DNA of 64,000 bases from Psychrobacter sp. GP33 (GTDB lineage Bacteria > Pseudomonadota > Gammaproteobacteria > Pseudomonadales > Moraxellaceae). Shown piece by piece: positions 7,713 to 33,701 of the stretch (within the stretch, counting starts at the first letter, position 1; each line of letters starts with the position of its first letter). The notes below the pieces were generated by a model. The model was not told the DNA's origin. It searched no databases and worked only from the letters and a program-made list of their open reading frames with translations. A program made the position numbers and the translations under genes. The stretch is taken from contig NZ_JACGYX010000001.1 of NCBI RefSeq assembly GCF_014119005.1, forward strand, positions 124,001 through 188,000, in the 5' to 3' direction.

Positions 7713-7848
7713 AGTACTTTTAAATTTTTTACCTTACTAATCATATTGTTCTCATCACTTTGGCTTAGTGTTGATATTCAGCCTGCACTTATGCTTCTAA
7801 TTAGCGCAACAATATATAGCGTAAATTTTTTTTCAGAACAGCCTAGTT

Positions 7849-8203
7849 TTACCTACAAGTAAACGCCACTAATAGTTTGATTTTTGATATACCATTATCT
7901 ATCAAGTCATTCATATCAAGCAGTGCCGTATCTATTGAGCATTTGGTCGTCGCTGCTCATTTCTTGATGGTCAGCTTGCCATAAAAATTAGTCAATAAAG
8001 TATTTAGTATCTTTACTTGTCTATCATTCAGAGCATGTTGTTGATGCATCTGCCAAAAGCTCGCTTTATTGATAATTCTATCTGTGGTCTTTTGAGCGTT
8101 GATAAGCAATTGTTCCAGCGTTTGTGCAGTTGGAAATAAAGCGTAATAAACAATGTAAACTAAACCTTCTCTTTGATTGCCACCTCTTAATTGACCGACT
8201 CAC
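7849..8203 (-). pseudogene. C-terminal remnant of a Fic-family protein
   Basis: The minus strand encodes the C-terminal part of a Fic (filamentation induced by cAMP, AMPylator) family protein of the type with a winged-helix tail. The frame reads TDRIINKASFWQMHQQHALN, then DRQVKILNTLL and GKLTIKK, hits TGA at 7957-7959, and continues in the same frame with TKCSIDTALLDMNDLID. Intact homologues have a Trp after KK, so TGG to TGA explains the stop. The Fic core with HPFxxGNGR is absent. The gene is therefore truncated and dead. Confidence 0.72.
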
Positions 8204-8384
8204 GATATCTAATACTACTATCATCTCTGATTTTTAGTCGCCGTATGTAATACAGTGCCAATATAGAGTGGGATAAATAACTGATAATAAGATAAACTTC
8301 TTTACGCTTGATTGCCCGAGCATTTGTAAAAGGGCAGTGATATAAAGACATTAACAAAAGAACATTGATATAAGGCACATTGCT

Positions 8385-9119
8385 ATGGAACCAAGACAGA
8401 ACCCTATGGAACAAACTCAAAACGCTGTAGAACACAGACCCGTATTCATGCCTAGAGTTAATAGTGACAATCTGGTAAAAACGGACATGGTTAGGTTTGA
8501 GCGGCATGTGGGATTCGCCAGTAGACAAAAGAAAAAATCCATCAATGATATGCATCAAGTGATTCGCAAGAAATATGGGTTTAATAGTGTCTTAGAGCTA
8601 TCGAGTAAATCTGGCAATAAGCTGAGTTTTTTACTGAGTCCATTGAGCTTAAAGCTGGCTAATGAGTATGATGGTAAGCAGTATAGTGTCGAAAATGCCT
8701 TTCAAAGCAGTGGTGTTTTTGAATACGGTGGTCCCTATACCGACTTGCTGACAGCGCCACCAAGACAAGCCAAAAAAGATGAGCGGTTAATAACTTCAGG
8801 TGAATTAATTAGCTACAATTATTTTGGTATAGAGTGGAGCGTAGAGCCATTGACCGCGTTTTATGATTGGCTGTATGTGAATGCCCTCAAGCAAAATACT
8901 CAACTGCATGAAGAGGTTATGCAATATCAAGCCTTTACTGATATGGAATTTAATCCAAAAAAATCCATCCATTGTGCAGCTTATGCGCTAGCGATGTTTG
9001 TGGCGCTCAATAAACGAGAGTTGCTTGATAATGTTGAAGACCCTGCGGTATTTTTTAACTTATACCATGATTTTAAAGTGAGTAATACTGAGCAGCTTTT
9101 GGAAGAAGGCTGGATCTGA
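8385..9119 (+). CDS. NADAR-domain protein, DarT1-associated antitoxin type
   Basis: This 244-residue protein resembles the NADAR family found as antitoxin beside DarT1 DNA ADP-ribosyltransferase toxins. The conserved blocks are visible: KKKSINDMH near residue 48, LELSSKSG near 69, SVENAFQSSGVFEYGGPYTD near 102-121, KKDERLITSG near 132-141, EPLTAFYDWLYVNAL near 157-171 and FNPKKSIHCAAYA near 191-203. NADAR proteins are reported to remove ADP-ribose, including from guanine bases. No DUF4433/DarT-type toxin gene is found on either side, so the gene is an orphan here. The N-terminus has a polar leader, and starting at Met 8 is also possible. Confidence 0.75.
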   Translation: MEPRQNPMEQTQNAVEHRPVFMPRVNSDNLVKTDMVRFERHVGFASRQKKKSINDMHQVIRKKYGFNSVLELSSKSGNKLSFLLSPLSLKLANEYDGKQYSVENAFQSSGVFEYGGPYTDLLTAPPRQAKKDERLITSGELISYNYFGIEWSVEPLTAFYDWLYVNALKQNTQLHEEVMQYQAFTDMEFNPKKSIHCAAYALAMFVALNKRELLDNVEDPAVFFNLYHDFKVSNTEQLLEEGWI

Positions 9120-9303
9120 TAGCTAGACCCTGTAATGGTTGTAGTGGCACAATAATATTATAAGCTCACTTGTGTTTTAAGAGTCAATACGTCACCCTGA
9201 GAGAATTAAGCATTTATCTATTCTCCATATATACAAATAACTGGGTGTGGAAAGCTATTGAGCATGGACAGTCGATGAAAGTTTTAAGCAAACAGGATAA
9301 TCC

Positions 9304-10251
9304 ATGAGTGAGTTTACAGAACAAAAGGTATCTAACCGCAATCATGCGTGGTTGATTCCTTTTAGTTGTCTTTTAGCGGGTGGTTTATTACTTGGGGTAT
9401 CTACCAATCTAGCGAAATACGCGGGCGAAATCGGCTTAACGCCACTGGCTTTTTTATTTTGGTCCATCACAGGCGCGGCGATTATTCTGTCAGTAGTGGC
9501 GCTGTTACGGCATGAGCATCCGCCTTTAAGCGCACGTGGTTTTGAATACTATTTTGTGGCTGCACTGGTCAGCGTTGCCGGTTCTAATTTAATATTTTTC
9601 TCAGCTATTCCGCATGTCGGTGCAGGCTTTGTGGCAATGATGATTGCACTGCCACCGCTGCTTACCTACCTTGGTGCACTCGCGTTACGTATAGAGCGTT
9701 TCAATACCATCCGTGCTTTTGGGGTAGCAGCAGCGCTTGCAGGTGCTGGTGTATTAGCAATACGCAAGTTTTCTGCACCCGATGCCAGTATATTTTGGAT
9801 TTTAATCGCGCTCTGTGGTCCTGTCTTGCTCGCCATTGGCAATATCTATCGCACATTACGGTGGCCGGATAAGGCATCTCCTAGTGCGCTTGCACCAGGT
9901 ATGCTGATTGCAGCAGCAATTTGGCTAGGAATGGTCAGTATATTTTCGAGCTTTTCATTGGTGGTTCCGCGTGGAGCAGTGCTACCGTTTGCTCTAATCG
10001 GTATACAAGCCTGTATCTTTGCAGGACAATTCTTACTCTTATTTTTGTTACAAAAAACGGGTGGTCCGGTGCTATTAAGTTTACTGGGATCAGTTGGGGC
10101 AGTGGTTGGCGTGCCTATCGCTATATTTTTACAAGGTGAAAGCGCACCGGATGGACTTATTCTAGGTGCATCTTTAATCGCGCTTGGCGTTGGCTTGGTG
10201 ACATGGGGCGGCATAAAGATGACAGCACCATTGCCAAAAAAAAGTGAATAA
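9304..10251 (+). CDS. EamA/DMT-family transporter
   Basis: This 315-residue inner-membrane protein has ten predicted helices in two five-helix halves, the pattern of drug/metabolite transporters with two EamA domains. The first half spans about residues 14-145 and the second about 160-305, ending in a short basic tail. The substrate cannot be inferred; relatives export amino acids or metabolites. ATG 9304 follows AGGATAATCC. A bidirectional terminator follows directly. Confidence 0.85.
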   Translation: MSEFTEQKVSNRNHAWLIPFSCLLAGGLLLGVSTNLAKYAGEIGLTPLAFLFWSITGAAIILSVVALLRHEHPPLSARGFEYYFVAALVSVAGSNLIFFSAIPHVGAGFVAMMIALPPLLTYLGALALRIERFNTIRAFGVAAALAGAGVLAIRKFSAPDASIFWILIALCGPVLLAIGNIYRTLRWPDKASPSALAPGMLIAAAIWLGMVSIFSSFSLVVPRGAVLPFALIGIQACIFAGQFLLLFLLQKTGGPVLLSLLGSVGAVVGVPIAIFLQGESAPDGLILGASLIALGVGLVTWGGIKMTAPLPKKSE

Positions 10252-23694: not shown

Positions 23695-24393
23695 ATGGTC
23701 ACTCAGTCTCTTGTCATGACAATGCTAACACCGTTTTGGGTCAGTATTAAGCTCGCTGGTATTACAACATTATGCCTGCTGCTATTGGCAACACCGTTAG
23801 CATATTGGCTGGCAAAACCCAGTCGCCACTCTATAATTGCACGTATCAAAATCTTATTAATAGGCATTATTGCCATGCCGTTGGTGCTGCCACCGACCGT
23901 TATTGGTTTTTATCTGCTATTGCTGCTAAGTCCAACGTCATCTTTTGGGCAATGGCTGGCGACACATCATATCAGTTCCTTGATTTTTACCTTTGAAGGG
24001 CTGGTTATTGGCTCCATTATTTATTCATTACCGTTTTATGTGCAGCCAGTCTATGCGCAGTTTTTGCGTATTCCGAAAAGCGTGCTGGAAGTAGCCCATT
24101 TACTAGAGCCGAACGGCTTTCGGCGCTTTTTGACCGTAGCGCTGCCGCACGCGCGTGTTGGTATTGTTTTAGGCAGCTTGATTAGCTTTGCACATACCAT
24201 TGGTGAGTTTGGCGTTGTGTTAATGATTGGCGGTAGTATCTCCGGTGAGACAAAGGTTATCTCTATTGCCATTTATGAGCAGGTAGAAGCACTGAATTAT
24301 GACACAGCGCATATTATGGCTGCGATTTTAATGGTTTTAGGAATGGTTATGGTCACCCTGATTGCTAGTCTCAGCCGAGCGATATCACGCTAA
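23695..24393 (+). CDS. modB: molybdate ABC transporter permease ModB
   Basis: This 232-residue inner-membrane permease has five to six helices and the EAA loop LEVAHLLEPNGFRRFLTVALPHA (divided here as LEVAHLLEPNG and RRFLTVALPHA) near residues 130-155, which docks the ATPase; the following stretch with AHTIGEFGVVLMIGG is typical of ModB. No modC ATPase gene follows: after a 120-bp gap comes an unrelated DUF421 gene. The ATPase must come from elsewhere, or the system is incomplete. Confidence 0.9.
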   Translation: MVTQSLVMTMLTPFWVSIKLAGITTLCLLLLATPLAYWLAKPSRHSIIARIKILLIGIIAMPLVLPPTVIGFYLLLLLSPTSSFGQWLATHHISSLIFTFEGLVIGSIIYSLPFYVQPVYAQFLRIPKSVLEVAHLLEPNGFRRFLTVALPHARVGIVLGSLISFAHTIGEFGVVLMIGGSISGETKVISIAIYEQVEALNYDTAHIMAAILMVLGMVMVTLIASLSRAISR

Positions 24394-29499: not shown

Positions 29500-29524
29500 A
29501 TTTTAGCTGTCAGCTATCAGAAAT

Positions 29525-29555
29525 AAAAAAGACTCCGTAAAATCGAGTCTTTTTT
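29525..29555. terminator. terminator after DUF308 gene
   Basis: AAAAAAGACTC pairs with GAGTCTTTTTT across a 9-nt loop, followed by non-coding sequence. It can act in both directions. Confidence 0.85.
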
Positions 29556-29612
29556 GGCTTGTACACTCTTAATAAGGACTTAATTCCGTTAATACGTTTC
29601 ATAATGACAAAA

Positions 29613-29645
29613 AAATGCGCCTATTATTGATAATAAGGCGCATTT
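29613..29645 (-). terminator. terminator of the Roadblock/PAS gene cluster
   Basis: AAATGCGCCT (29613-29622) is perfectly complementary to AGGCGCATTT (29636-29645). On the minus strand the hairpin is followed by a run of T, and it lies 33 bp after the last gene of the cluster. Confidence 0.8.
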
Positions 29646-29678
29646 AATAATTTTTATTTTTTGATTCTTCAATTTTAT

Positions 29679-30293
29679 TTAATCCAGAAATTTCAATCCA
29701 GATGTTTTAATGCCCCAAATTAATTCAACAAAGGCACGATTGTTGGTTAACGGCTCGCCATCAATAATCAATGCGTAACCATCATTATCAATCCATAAAA
29801 ATACAAAGCTGGTTTCAGGAATTAATAAATCCACTTGTTGGAAAAAAGAAATGGCTCGGCTACCGACTGACCAGCCGCGCTGCTTTTGACGCAGCATAAA
29901 GCCTGAAAAGTCAGCTGCCGCAACGCTGAGCATGTCCGCTTCTTCTTGACTATAACCAATCCGCGCCAAACAGAATCCATCATCTGAGGCAATTGCTGCG
30001 CGACGCTTACCCGATAGACTTGCTACTACATAAGGTAAAAACTGATCGAGTGGTAAGTTTGGAGCAGGTAGAAAGGTTGACAGTCTTTCAATAAATCCCT
30101 GCTCAACAAAACCATCTAGCCACAGTTCGGGATACTCCTCTAGCCATGTTGCCACTAGCATGGTCTCACGATGTGAGAGCAGGGCTTGTAATGCCAGTTG
30201 CATTGCAGTCGGTGCTTGCTGTGAAAATGCTTCAAATACGCCAGCTGGCGTTAGGGTAATATAGGTTTTATCAGCATTATCGAGAATGGACAT
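29679..30293 (-). CDS. unknown protein with Roadblock-like segment
   Basis: This 204-residue soluble protein is not one I recognise by name. Residues about 95-150 (GKRRAAIASDDGFCLARIG, then QEEADMLSVAAADFSGF) resemble a Roadblock/LC7 fold, in which a strand-turn-strand with a conserved Gly is followed by a long helix. The N-terminal 90 residues are helical and unassigned. It is the last gene of the five-gene cluster with a true Roadblock protein at its head, 68 bp after its neighbour. A role in the same signalling complex is inferred from position. Confidence 0.6.
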   Translation of the reverse strand: MSILDNADKTYITLTPAGVFEAFSQQAPTAMQLALQALLSHRETMLVATWLEEYPELWLDGFVEQGFIERLSTFLPAPNLPLDQFLPYVVASLSGKRRAAIASDDGFCLARIGYSQEEADMLSVAAADFSGFMLRQKQRGWSVGSRAISFFQQVDLLIPETSFVFLWIDNDGYALIIDGEPLTNNRAFVELIWGIKTSGLKFLD

Positions 30294-30361
30294 AGAAGCT
30301 ACCTTATTAAAATCTGAAAAATAACGTTAGTGATGACCTGTGTTGGTAACTTATCCTGACA

Positions 30362-31015
30362 TTATTGAGCTTCAGGTATGGGCGTAGTACGTTCTTCATT
30401 GCTAACCGTGGTTTGTTCTAAGCGTTGCTGGCAGTCACTCCAACGCTCATCAAATAACCAATCACTTTTTCCTAAGCGAAACCAGACGATGGAGAAGGCA
30501 AGGCGATCATTACACGCCAAACAATGGGCAAAGAATTCATTTTCAATTTGCTTAATGGTTTGCCAGTTTTCATTATCGCGTGCTTCCATCAGCTCAGTAG
30601 TGATATTTTTGGCGACTTCCTTGGCATCATCACTACTGATACGCAAGCGGTGTGTATCGACATTCAGCGATGGAGTCACAAGGACACTCCAACGAGTGGC
30701 AAAAATACTGCTGTGCTTAATATAATCAAGTTTGTTAATACAATTGTGAAAAGCTTGTTCTATCTGTGGATGCAAGCGCCCTTGAATGCGCGCAAATATT
30801 TCTTCAACATTATAAGGGATATCGTACCAACAACCGTAAAAAAAGTCTGCCAAAGCGCCTTGTAAAGGCTCTTTTTCATTTAATAATAAGGCGGCGTTAA
30901 TGCGTTGTTCATGGTAATAACGATTGTTTGGAACCACAAATACTTTACGGGAAAAGTAACGGAAGGCTTTGCGAGCGGCGAGCTCGCTTTCCTCAGTTAC
31001 AGGTACATTGACCAT
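30362..31015 (-). CDS. conserved-looking hypothetical protein of sensory cluster
   Basis: This 217-residue soluble protein is unknown to me. It has no signal peptide or membrane helix, is rich in Trp, Tyr and Phe (FYGCWYDIPYNVEEIFARI near residues 58-75) and is predicted to be mainly helical. It lies between the PhnD-like gene (288-bp gap) and the Roadblock-like gene (68-bp gap) on the same strand. Its start has a purine-rich region upstream. The function is not inferable beyond the genomic association. Confidence 0.6.
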   Translation of the reverse strand: MVNVPVTEESELAARKAFRYFSRKVFVVPNNRYYHEQRINAALLLNEKEPLQGALADFFYGCWYDIPYNVEEIFARIQGRLHPQIEQAFHNCINKLDYIKHSSIFATRWSVLVTPSLNVDTHRLRISSDDAKEVAKNITTELMEARDNENWQTIKQIENEFFAHCLACNDRLAFSIVWFRLGKSDWLFDERWSDCQQRLEQTTVSNEERTTPIPEAQ

Positions 31016-31303
31016 AACGCTATCCCTTATTATTGAGTGAAAGATTATCTATTGAGTTATTACTGAGTGAGCTGTTATTAAGAAAACTGTTATTAAGTAA
31101 ATTATTATAAAGTGGAGGCTGGCAAGAATGGAGCTATCTATTCAGAATATTTATTTAAATTGGGCAAGCTTATAAATATTAAAAAAGCAATTAGTAACCA
31201 TAATAAGTATCCATGAAGATATCATTTATCAAATATTTTAAACGATTTATAAACTTCTATAGATACCTAAAAATGGCTAATTTTATCTTTTATGAGCCAT
31301 CAA

Positions 31304-32053
31304 CTAATTCAGCAAAGTTTCCATCAAATCTAACATAAACTCTCCATCTTCTTCACTCATTACCTCAAAGCCTTGAGGCATACCAAGCTCAGTTAACGCT
31401 GCTTTACCATCTTCATCGTTATGCAAATTAAGAATGGCATCCATGAGAATGTCGGTATCAGGAAAATCATCTTTAATAAGTAATACATGGCTAATATCTG
31501 CCAAATCGCTTTCAATAAGAACGGATAGTTGAGCCTTAGTAAGTCGTGAAAAGCTATGGAAAATTTCAGCCAAAAAGAAAGCGGCTTGAGATTCACCTTT
31601 GATAACTTGGCGTGCCGCTGCTTGATAAGTTTCGGTTACTGTCCAATTAAGATCGTTTTCTTCCAAATCAACCGCTTCTAGTAAGCGTAAACCAATGAGC
31701 TTAACGTCACGGTTATTTGCCATAGAAATGGTCGCGCCGACGGTCAAATCTTCCAAGCAATTGATATCGCTATTGGCAGCCGCCGCAATCACCATTTCAT
31801 CAGATTTACCAATAGGACGGGCAACTGCTCGGTAGCCTTGTTCGCGGATAAGCGTTGTTGCATCAAAAGGATTGGCATAAATGACTTGAATGTTGCCTGC
31901 GCTAATCAGTTCTTCTTGCTCAGCATGTGAAGCGGGTATATTCAGGTGCATATTTAGATTGGCACGTTTTTGAATTAAGATATTAAACATATGCCAGCCT
32001 GCAAAACGCTCAGGCGAAAAATCAGGGGCGATTAACATATTATGCGTCGTCAT
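31304..32053 (-). CDS. PhnD-like substrate-binding domain protein without signal peptide
   Basis: This 249-residue protein resembles PhnD/phosphonate-type periplasmic binding domains: IQVIYANPFDATTLIREQGY near residues 54-73, then RPIGKSDEMVIAAA near 78-91, DLTVGATISMANNRD near 101-115 and RQVIKGESQAAFFLAEIF near 150-168. It starts directly in the domain with no signal peptide, so it should be cytoplasmic, as a sensor rather than a transporter part. It is 3 bp downstream of the PAS gene and must be translated with it. A GTP- or metabolite-sensing role is inference. Confidence 0.68.
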   Translation of the reverse strand: MTTHNMLIAPDFSPERFAGWHMFNILIQKRANLNMHLNIPASHAEQEELISAGNIQVIYANPFDATTLIREQGYRAVARPIGKSDEMVIAAAANSDINCLEDLTVGATISMANNRDVKLIGLRLLEAVDLEENDLNWTVTETYQAAARQVIKGESQAAFFLAEIFHSFSRLTKAQLSVLIESDLADISHVLLIKDDFPDTDILMDAILNLHNDEDGKAALTELGMPQGFEVMSEEDGEFMLDLMETLLN

Positions 32054-32056
32054 GAT

Positions 32057-32551
32057 TTAACCTTCCTCGTTCTGTTTCATTTCGGCATATTGAGCAATAG
32101 CGGCTTCAATTTTGCTACGTGATGGTTTACGGCGTACTGACGTGTAACCGACTGTTTTACCGTGTCGTACATTGGGCACGACAGTGGCGTAAACCCAATA
32201 ATGACTGCCATCTTTGCACAAGTTTTTGACATAGCCATGCCACTTTTGCCCAGACTCAGCGGTTGCCCATAAATCTTTATAGGCGGCTTTTGGCATATCA
32301 GGATGGCGCAAAATAGACTGTGGCTGACCGATGAGCTCGTCAACACTGTAGCCGCTAATTTCTACAAAAGCATCATTAGCATGTGTAAGAATACCGTTCA
32401 AATCTGTTCGTGACACGATGAGTTTACCATCGGGATAAGGGCGCTCGATCCCTGAGTCGTAAACAGTACGCGAGGTTCCATCGTGATACGTTAACGTGAT
32501 TTGCTCAGCGGGCATATCAGGCTTATTGGCATCAGAAAGTGGAGAACCCAT
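32057..32551 (-). CDS. Aer-type PAS domain protein
   Basis: This 164-residue protein is essentially one PAS domain of the Aer family. After a 45-residue leader it shows TDLNGILTHANDAFVEISGY near 48-67, ELIGQPQSILRHPDMP near 71-86, AYKDLWATAESGQKWHGYV and the strand GSHYWVYATVVPN. In Aer this domain binds FAD and senses redox state. Here the HAMP, membrane and chemotaxis signalling domains are missing, so it must pass its signal to partner proteins. A 3-bp gap separates it from the PhnD-like gene. Confidence 0.82.
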   Translation of the reverse strand: MGSPLSDANKPDMPAEQITLTYHDGTSRTVYDSGIERPYPDGKLIVSRTDLNGILTHANDAFVEISGYSVDELIGQPQSILRHPDMPKAAYKDLWATAESGQKWHGYVKNLCKDGSHYWVYATVVPNVRHGKTVGYTSVRRKPSRSKIEAAIAQYAEMKQNEEG

Positions 32552-32687
32552 GATAATCTCCTTTATCTATTTTAATAATCATTATTAGTTGATGTACATA
32601 ACAATCAATGTGTTATCTCATCAATTAGAATCAGTTTTATATCGTTATTACTATACGCTTATTACTATAGAGCAGCTTAATTAGCCT

Positions 32688-33050
32688 TTAAATCAGCTTA
32701 GCAAGTGCTTCTGAAGCGCGCTTAATGTCCAAAAAGACCAGCCCCAGCTTAGCATTAGGCTTAGTCATAATGGTTAGTACCGCTTCATCACCTGAAGACG
32801 TCATGATGACCGAACCTTTTTCGCCTTGAATCATAATGCGATCGATACTTCCACGTGCCAACTCTTGACCTGCACGATCTCCCAAAGACAATAGGGCGGC
32901 TGACATAGCGCCTACCCTGTCTTCATCAACATTCGTAGGTAATGCAGATGCTATCATCAGACCGTCGGTTGAGATAAGAGCTGACGCTTCAACATCGGCT
33001 GATGAATTGTTTAAGTCTTCTAAGATTTGTTGAAATGAATCTGTACGCAT
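32688..33050 (-). CDS. Roadblock/LC7 domain protein (MglB-like)
   Basis: This 120-residue protein is a single Roadblock/LC7 domain: a first strand and turn (VEASALISTDGLMIASALP near residues 20-38), a long central helix (DRVGAMSAALLSLGDRAGQEL near 44-64) and later strands (GSVIMTSSGDEAVLTIMTK). Such proteins form dimers; MglB is a GTPase-activating partner of MglA. No small GTPase gene is in this cluster. It is the first gene of the five-gene unit, with a 651-bp upstream region. Confidence 0.82.
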   Translation of the reverse strand: MRTDSFQQILEDLNNSSADVEASALISTDGLMIASALPTNVDEDRVGAMSAALLSLGDRAGQELARGSIDRIMIQGEKGSVIMTSSGDEAVLTIMTKPNAKLGLVFLDIKRASEALAKLI

Positions 33051-33701
33051 ATATGTCTCTATTGCTGAATGTTAAATGGATACAAACTAACTATTGATAA
33101 TTTAGAAAGTTATATTTTCTTATGCACGTACAGTATAAAACCTTACTTCTTATATTGATATAAAATTATCTAATAATTTATAAAAACTACATTGAATATA
33201 GTAATTAGCTGTAAAATAGGGTGCATTACTTATTTTATTAAATTATTTAGATGCTGACTATTAACCTGCATCAACAATACGCGTTTTTGTATCAAGAAGT
33301 GTTTTACGAGATTTATAATTTTCACTATTTTTAAAAAAAACTATTGACTTTTTTGGTCAGAGCTGTAAATTAAATAGGCAGAGTCAAGCGTCCATTCATA
33401 AAATACCTTTCACATATTATTCATGACATTATTTATTGTAATGTTCTCATCTACCTATAAATTGTAGCCTAGATGGCAGTCTATAGTGACCTATTCACAA
33501 CTATAGACTTTAGTATTGTGTGTCCGTCTATGGGTCAGTCAGCTCGCTTATATTCAAGTCAGCCGCCATAGATTCTGCATAAGCTCAACACTTGGCTGTT
33601 TAATACTGCACCGGTATTTGTCATATTGTAGTATATTGTCGTGCAATATGACCCGGATGCTATTCAGTACACCCACCTCGCTCCATCGCTAAGGAAGATA
33701 T
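33051..33701. other. divergent regulatory region, Roadblock cluster / gdhA
   Basis: 651 bp with stops in all frames. It is strongly AT-rich near 33100-33350. It should contain promoters for the Roadblock cluster (minus) and gdhA (plus). An imperfect TTGAC...GGTCA pair at about 33347 has the wrong spacing for the RutR-type box seen elsewhere. No other element is clear. Confidence 0.45.

Follow-up and report, generated by a model that had tools for sequence, protein, structure and literature searches.

In a 64,000-nucleotide stretch of the Psychrobacter sp. GP33 genome (hereafter the window), we analyzed a cluster of five genes on the minus strand. They encode, in order, a Roadblock/LC7 protein (Robl), an Aer-type PAS protein (PAS), a PhnD-like binding protein (PhnD-like), a helical protein (X) and a second Roadblock-fold protein (Robl2). 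Comparison with related genomes gives good support to the descent of this cluster from a seven-gene Group 3 Mgl system, of which it is a truncated version without the GTPase. Group 3 MglA/MglB systems were described from operons of beta- and gamma-proteobacteria (Wuichet and Sogaard-Andersen 2014, PMC4316618). According to that description they comprise a single MglA together with one or two MglB and a protein whose N-terminus is receiver-like and whose C-terminus is winged helix-turn-helix (wHTH)-like, and MglA proteins of Groups 2 and 3 have no [NT]KxD at G4 and a DAR at G5 (PMC4316618). The five genes that persist in the GTPase-less lineages are under purifying selection.

Two genes missing from the cluster

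All five open reading frames were confirmed at the positions given in a preliminary description of this DNA. Robl (32688..33050, 120 amino acids) is followed by PAS (32057..32551, 164 amino acids), whose stop codon lies 3 bp from the start of PhnD-like (31304..32053, 249 amino acids), a spacing that had also been reported correctly. X (30362..31015, 217 amino acids) is kept within the operon and is separated from Robl2 (29679..30293, 204 amino acids) by a gap of 68 bp on the same strand (30294..30361). It is in this gap that relatives hold two further genes, encoding a protein of ∼430 amino acids, which we call Y, and an MglA-type GTPase of ∼182 amino acids.

We surveyed 149 genomes of the family Moraxellaceae. 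Robl was matched in 63 of them, strongly in 48 (E < 1e-30) and elsewhere by weaker Roadblock matches; Robl2 occurs in 49, namely the same 48 genomes and one more (G023). Among 34 cluster loci drawn from the 48 genomes and inspected, 12 have Y and the GTPase inserted between X and Robl2, and the window and the other 22 loci are without both. Y is a fast-evolving protein of 405-459 amino acids. From its position, and from its conserved ends joined by a variable linker, we infer that it is the published Group 3 receiver/wHTH protein. The GTPase of the relatives (176-184 amino acids) matches ATP_bind_1 above the cut-off (E 6.5e-10) and small_GTP below it. In the alignment of 12 GTPase sequences (A2) the P-loop and the TPGQ motif are invariant, [NT]KxD is lacking at G4, where a TH[ACS]E-like sequence stands, and G5 is an invariant DAR (D164-A165-R166).

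With profile matches of E < 1e-100 taken as the cluster GTPase, this gene was found in 15 of the 149 family genomes. Robl2 directly follows it by coordinates in all 15, and wherever a locus was inspected in detail (12 of the 15) Y accompanies it. The earlier statement that no GTPase is present thus holds for the window and its genome but not for the system. The other 34 Robl2-bearing family genomes divide into 15 with a different MglA-like GTPase (E ∼1e-27 to 1e-45) and 19 with none of full length, two of which (G033 and G042) hold only GTPase fragments of 22-24 codons. In the genome of the window, an MglA-type profile found no MglA-like GTPase at E 0.001 (other GTPase families were not searched). 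As the profile detects other MglA types in related genomes at ∼1e-27 or better, we rejected the presence of an MglA-like GTPase elsewhere in this genome.

Within the genus group of the window (g1) the cluster GTPase is absent from 31 of the 32 Robl2-bearing genomes. A midpoint-rooted locus tree of four concatenated proteins, which carries no printed support values, places the GTPase-less loci inside the GTPase-bearing group, as one large clade and a single locus (L036) apart from it. Another family of the same order (f37) has 12 genomes with Robl2, and nine of its loci were mapped with hidden Markov models (HMMs): X, Robl2 and Robl are present in all nine, PAS and PhnD-like in eight (not in L193) and the GTPase in none. 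In one of these loci (L191) the place of Y is occupied by a 544-amino-acid protein not matched by the Y model. Genome-wide, six of the 12 f37 genomes have other GTPase types and six have none, and no match comes near the E ∼1e-56 at which the GTPase is found, directly before Robl2, in representatives of two other families of the order (G165 and G192). On this sequence comparison the absence of the GTPase is most readily explained as a secondary loss. The loss apparently took place in at least three lineages, because the g1 clade, L036 and f37 are each without the cluster GTPase; for f37 it is deduced by parsimony and not from the tree.

Conservation and selection

The five genes occur in unchanged order in 33 of the 34 Moraxellaceae loci, 21 of these 33 being without the GTPase, and X is found in all 34. 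The sole exception (L045 in G033; 7826-9661) has a truncated Robl and lacks PAS and PhnD-like. In L044 the PAS match is split into two pieces, possibly by a frameshift, and the G023 locus (L202:8630-9879) is a partial cluster of just X and Robl2. Robl is at least 82% identical across the 34 loci, in L045 over 75 residues only. In the class as a whole, Robl2 was detected in 40 of 369 genomes.

We calculated medians of the ratio of nonsynonymous to synonymous substitution rates (dN/dS) by the Nei-Gojobori method for eight pairs from the GTPase-less clade and five GTPase-bearing pairs (three for X); the pairs were chosen by us and share members, and dS is near 1 in most of the GTPase-bearing ones. 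In the GTPase-less clade the values are 0.033 for Robl, 0.066 for PAS, 0.046 for PhnD-like, 0.081 for X and 0.028 for Robl2, and in the GTPase-bearing pairs 0.017, 0.078, 0.059, 0.104 and 0.062, respectively. The five genes are therefore under purifying selection after the loss of the GTPase. A chance neighbourhood is ruled out by the shared gene order of 33 of the 34 loci together with dN/dS of 0.03-0.08, and the proposal that the five genes form a cluster conserved in relatives is borne out.

The Roadblock proteins and protein X

Robl matches the Pfam family Robl_LC7 (PF03259, E 6.9e-18), in agreement with its earlier assignment, and its sequence relatives in the PDB include MglB. X and Robl2 match nothing above the Pfam cut-off. 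Three homologues of Robl2 graze Robl_LC7 at E 0.006-0.09, and Robl2 itself has an NCBIfam anti-sigma match at E 0.02, all below the cut-off. The AlphaFold2 model of Robl2 (predicted local distance difference test, pLDDT, 89; predicted template modelling score, pTM, 0.84) consists of a separate N-terminal domain (approximately residues 11-72) and a C-terminal Roadblock domain (79-201). When residues 79-201 were compared with known structures by VIA-align, Roadblock chains topped the list: 7F8F with Z 9.6 (2.8 Å, 79 residues), 3KYE_A with Z 8.6 (3.0 Å, 107 residues) and MglB, 6H5B_C, with Z 8.1 (3.1 Å, 110 residues). The best E-value by Foldseek alone was 1.3e-3. On the model, then, Robl2 is predicted to have the Roadblock fold, as had been suspected for this second Roadblock-like protein, and with Z up to 9.6 we rejected the alternative that it is not a Roadblock. 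Residues 1-78 gave no significant PDB or Pfam match in full-protein searches, the structures listed scarcely extending into them; the domain alone was not searched, and a known fold is possible.

The model of X is all helical (pLDDT 87.7, pTM 0.55). No confident match to X was found in Pfam, NCBIfam or the PDB, which accords with its earlier description as a protein of no recognised family, and the comparison of its model with the PDB returned no row above Z 7.5, which for an all-helical protein is uninformative. A Pfam SRI match at E 0.005 is below the cut-off. Some distant homologues of X carry an insert with weak TPR matches, and a link of X to FimV/TPR proteins was dropped, these matches being confined to distant homologues.

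The sensor-like proteins

PAS matches the Pfam family PAS_3 (E 2.1e-16) and aligns with E. coli Aer (8DIK) over 116 residues (phmmer E 1.9e-38). The 164-amino-acid protein has only PAS matches in Pfam and no HAMP or methyl-accepting signalling domain, which confirms an Aer-like PAS without an output domain. In Aer, flavin adenine dinucleotide (FAD) is contacted by H53, R57, W70, N85 and R115 (PMC9668731). These residues correspond to Q78, R82, W95, N110 and R140 in PAS of the window. The correspondence is set by the numbering that we take to be that of Aer. It agrees with the substitutions G28, V65 and V99 of 8DIK (PMC9668731). R82, W95, N110 and R140 are invariant in all 19 sequences of an alignment of the window and 18 named loci (A8) and in all 33 Moraxellaceae sequences, and the position of H53 is occupied by histidine in 17 of the 19 and 22 of the 33. 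Aer-type FAD-binding PAS domains have a conserved tryptophan together with a histidine and/or an asparagine in the flavin pocket, which here are W95 and N110; the tryptophan is the primary determinant of FAD binding (PMC10468136). Because four of the five FAD-contact residues are conserved, the tryptophan included, the PAS protein likely binds flavin/FAD and is a probable redox sensor.

In PhnD-like, the match to Pfam Phosphonate-bd (PF12974, E 1.9e-31) begins at residue 7, leaving no room for a signal peptide, and ends at residue 236. The 21 aligned homologues (A3) likewise start at the domain, without an N-terminal extension. Past the point where the Pfam match ends, the C-terminal sequence EFMIDLM-D/E-TL is strongly conserved in the family. 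The protein is thus predicted to be cytoplasmic, and the earlier reading of a binding protein without a signal peptide is upheld. No permease or ATPase gene adjoins the PhnD-like gene; the nearest permease-like open reading frame listed for the window (23695-24393, on the opposite strand) is of molybdate type by eye. A role as part of an ATP-binding cassette (ABC) transporter was ruled out, since both a signal peptide and an adjoining permease or ATPase are lacking. A search of PDB sequences with a PhnD profile returned nothing at 0.001.

Distribution outside the family

We searched named genomes with a GTPase profile and kept the best 80 loci of at least 592 matched stretches, so that the sample is biased to Moraxella-like GTPases. 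The loci were examined with HMMs of the seven families (thresholds of 1e-20 for Robl, 1e-3 for Robl2, and 1e-50 for PAS and PhnD). Robl and Robl2 are both present in 60 of these best 80 loci, and together with PAS and PhnD in 37; the order Robl-PAS-PhnD on one strand is seen in 36, and 20 have neither set. Absences in the 16 loci shorter than 12 kb carry little weight. Among the genera with the PAS/PhnD set are Moraxella, Vandammella, Ottowia, Methylomonas, Methylobacter, Halothiobacillus and Zoogloea. Operons with the GTPase and Y that are homologous to the cluster were found in Moraxella, Psychrobacter pygoscelis and Comamonadaceae, and the GTPase, Robl2, Robl, PAS and PhnD occur together in methanotrophs, Halothiobacillus, Zoogloea and others. 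One of these methanotrophs is Methylotuvimicrobium buryatense 5G (L158). Eight loci of Neisseriales (from Eikenella, Snodgrassella, Aquitalea, Vogesella, Stenoxybacter and Neisseria) have GTPase-Robl2-Robl only. PAS and PhnD-like are recurring partners of Group 3-type GTPase loci. This association appears new relative to the literature examined: in open-access PMC literature, no title or abstract opening that we found names the PAS/PhnD/Roadblock set.

Several other arrangements were encountered. An Ottowia metagenome-assembled genome (L112:2506-9551) holds a duplicated and rearranged version of the operon, with Robl, a divergent PhnD-like and the GTPase each twice, X, Y and Robl2 once, and no PAS detected. 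A Moraxella-like genome (G010, L072:5838-11600) has a second, different MglA/Roadblock operon with a Y-like protein, a GTPase, a Roadblock and, by eye, a periplasmic sugar-binding-like lipoprotein and a histidine kinase. In other genera of the family, GTPase-Roadblock clusters lie near what by eye are histidine kinase/response regulator and globin-like genes (L049:6378-13651, L051:4800-12770). Loci of the Psychrobacter group (L078:1898-5864, L079 and L080) have a third type of GTPase-Roadblock pair, tandemly duplicated in L078. Lone, orphan MglB-like Roadblocks 43-48% identical to Robl of the window (L046:9367-9744, L047:1208-1582, L048:9370-9747) have no other cluster genes in the stretches examined; the one in L048 has a bioB-like neighbour by eye. 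Around the cluster itself, a scan of 29500-33400 gave 18 promoter-like sites (11.3 expected, standard deviation 3.2) and two terminator-like sites (2.9 expected, standard deviation 1.6), on which no conclusion rests.

Proposed mechanism and alternatives

We think it fairly probable that the cluster derives from a Group 3 Mgl system and that it is a redox- and ligand-sensing Roadblock module which works without its GTPase. The Aer-type PAS would bind FAD and read the cellular redox state, and the cytoplasmic PhnD-like protein would read a small ligand. Both would act on Robl and Robl2, the two MglB-like Roadblocks, with X as a putative helical scaffold, and the Roadblock complex would signal by direct protein contact and not through the GTP/GDP state of a GTPase. 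In this model the binding of FAD and of a ligand, the physical contacts between the proteins, the part played by X and the output are all inferred. Strong selection has been kept on the regulators in the absence of their switch, and they therefore probably have a switch-independent job. It is plausible, although short of probable, that the two Roadblocks form a complex switched directly by the flavin-PAS and the binding protein, and that the GTPase has been shed repeatedly, being one of two outputs.

Several points weigh against the derived Group 3 module proposed here. The dN/dS of Robl is higher without the GTPase (0.033 vs 0.017), the other four genes showing lower values, and the pairs compared are few and hand-picked. 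PAS of the window has a glutamine (Q78) at the position of Aer H53. The receiver/wHTH build ascribed to Y comes from PMC4316618, our own searches giving just a sub-threshold response-regulator match. Furthermore, a GTPase of another family could serve the Roadblock proteins. If the Roadblocks acted in trans on another small GTPase, the cluster copy would have been replaced and the mechanism would be unchanged; we consider this unlikely. MglB is named the GTPase-activating protein of MglA (PMC11112851), and another MglA-like GTPase is present in 15 of the 34 Robl2 genomes without the cluster copy and in six of the 12 f37 genomes. However, the MglA-type profile detects no full-length MglA-like GTPase in 19 of the 34, the genome of the window included, nor in six of the 12.

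The cluster might instead be a decaying remnant, the rest of which drifts to loss once the GTPase is gone. Nine of the 41 g1 genomes are without both Robl and Robl2, G023 retains only X and Robl2, and L045 combines a truncated Robl with the absence of PAS and PhnD-like. The signal of selection nevertheless makes decay very unlikely: dN/dS is 0.03-0.08 in the GTPase-less clade, and four of the five genes have lower values there than in the pairs with the GTPase; 33 of 34 loci, including 21 GTPase-less ones, share the same order; and f37 keeps the same genes without the cluster GTPase. Improbable in our estimate is also a transcriptional regulator, in which the N-terminal domain of Robl2 would act on DNA or RNA polymerase under the control of PAS and PhnD-like. 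In the Robl2 model this domain has, by eye, a winged-helix-like order of a strand (11-14), helices and a strand (68-71), and one Robl2 homologue has a sub-threshold POLR3C_WHD match there (E 0.12). Control of transcription has been proposed for Group 3 systems from the wHTH-like region of the protein that we equate with Y (PMC4316618). Yet the window no longer has Y, the putative DNA-binding protein, and the searches with full-length Robl2 found no significant match for its N-terminal part.

As to the output of the GTPase-less Roadblock module, a surface behaviour tied to type IV pili is a tentative suggestion that we regard as rather doubtful, on evidence graded as weak. In g1, PilT is found at E 1.5e-148 or better in all 32 Robl2 carriers and is lacking at that score in five of the nine non-carriers; a PilB search covered 60 genomes of the genus, four of those five among them, and all four stayed below the cut-off. 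In g10, taken to be Moraxella, every one of the 10 carriers has a PilT match at E 1.5e-152 or better, and of the 12 non-carriers 11 have lower-scoring matches and one has none; this pattern, too, may reflect a single split. PilT is present in all 15 distant carriers, a count with no baseline for comparison. In Snodgrassella, mutation of an orphan mglB altered soft-agar spreading and gut competition (PMC11112851). A pilus link is weakened by the finding that the five g1 genomes lacking a high-scoring PilT fall into one clade in a single-gene tree, so that the co-loss counts as one event, and by four other g1 genomes that keep PilT without the cluster. Genomes of g15 have PilT matches, with the cluster in only one of them. 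Finally, 20 of 1589 mutants in a Neisseria meningitidis collection had aggregation or twitching defects, and the genes named there are 17 pil genes, tsaP, NMV_1205 and NMV_2228 (PMC7606547; presence of mgl in the collection unchecked).

The GTPase-less lineages, in which both Roadblocks, a redox-type PAS and PhnD-like are under purifying selection, amount to a natural experiment on Roadblock function alone. Roadblock proteins of the MglB type have a known role as GTPase-activating proteins. If our reading is true, in these lineages they make up a signalling module that has no need of a GTPase. In the literature examined we found no input signal described for Group 3 Mgl systems; the PAS and PhnD-like proteins that recur beside them are candidates for this role.

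Comparison with known systems

The actinobacterial conservons (CvnA-D) resemble the seven-gene system in combining a sensor, a Roadblock and an MglA-type GTPase in one operon (PMC4316618). They differ in having a histidine kinase as sensor, in normally keeping the GTPase and in belonging to another phylum. E. coli Aer shares a match of 116 residues and four of the five FAD contacts with PAS of the window, which differs in being a free-standing protein of 164 amino acids. The polarity module MglA/MglB of Myxococcus xanthus is similar in using the Roadblock family of GTPase-activating proteins, and MglB is among the matches of both Robl and Robl2. We know of no PAS or PhnD-like partners of the Myxococcus module. 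It differs in belonging to Group 1 (PMC4316618) and in being GTPase-dependent. The mgl genes of Snodgrassella, including the orphan mglB-3, are called Group 3 in PMC11112851, and two of the loci in our sample (L140 and L145) have the arrangement GTPase-Robl2-Robl; unlike the window they keep MglA, and no PAS or PhnD was detected in the flanks examined.

The closest likeness is to the published Group 3 operons. The relatives of the window agree with them in gene set and in GTPase motifs, having the signature at G4 and G5, and the window has two MglB, Robl by sequence and Robl2 by its predicted fold. It differs in being without MglA and the receiver-like Y, two defining genes. The main text of PMC4316618 does not use the term PAS, and its section on signal-transduction links mentions neither PAS nor PhnD-like proteins. 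The preliminary description regarded the cluster as not a textbook system. The PAS and PhnD-like partners and the loss of the GTPase set it apart from the published kind, but the cluster is not an orphan architecture, because the GTPase adjoins Robl2 in 15 of 149 family genomes and in many beta- and gamma-proteobacteria, and it is kin to the published Group 3 MglA/MglB systems.

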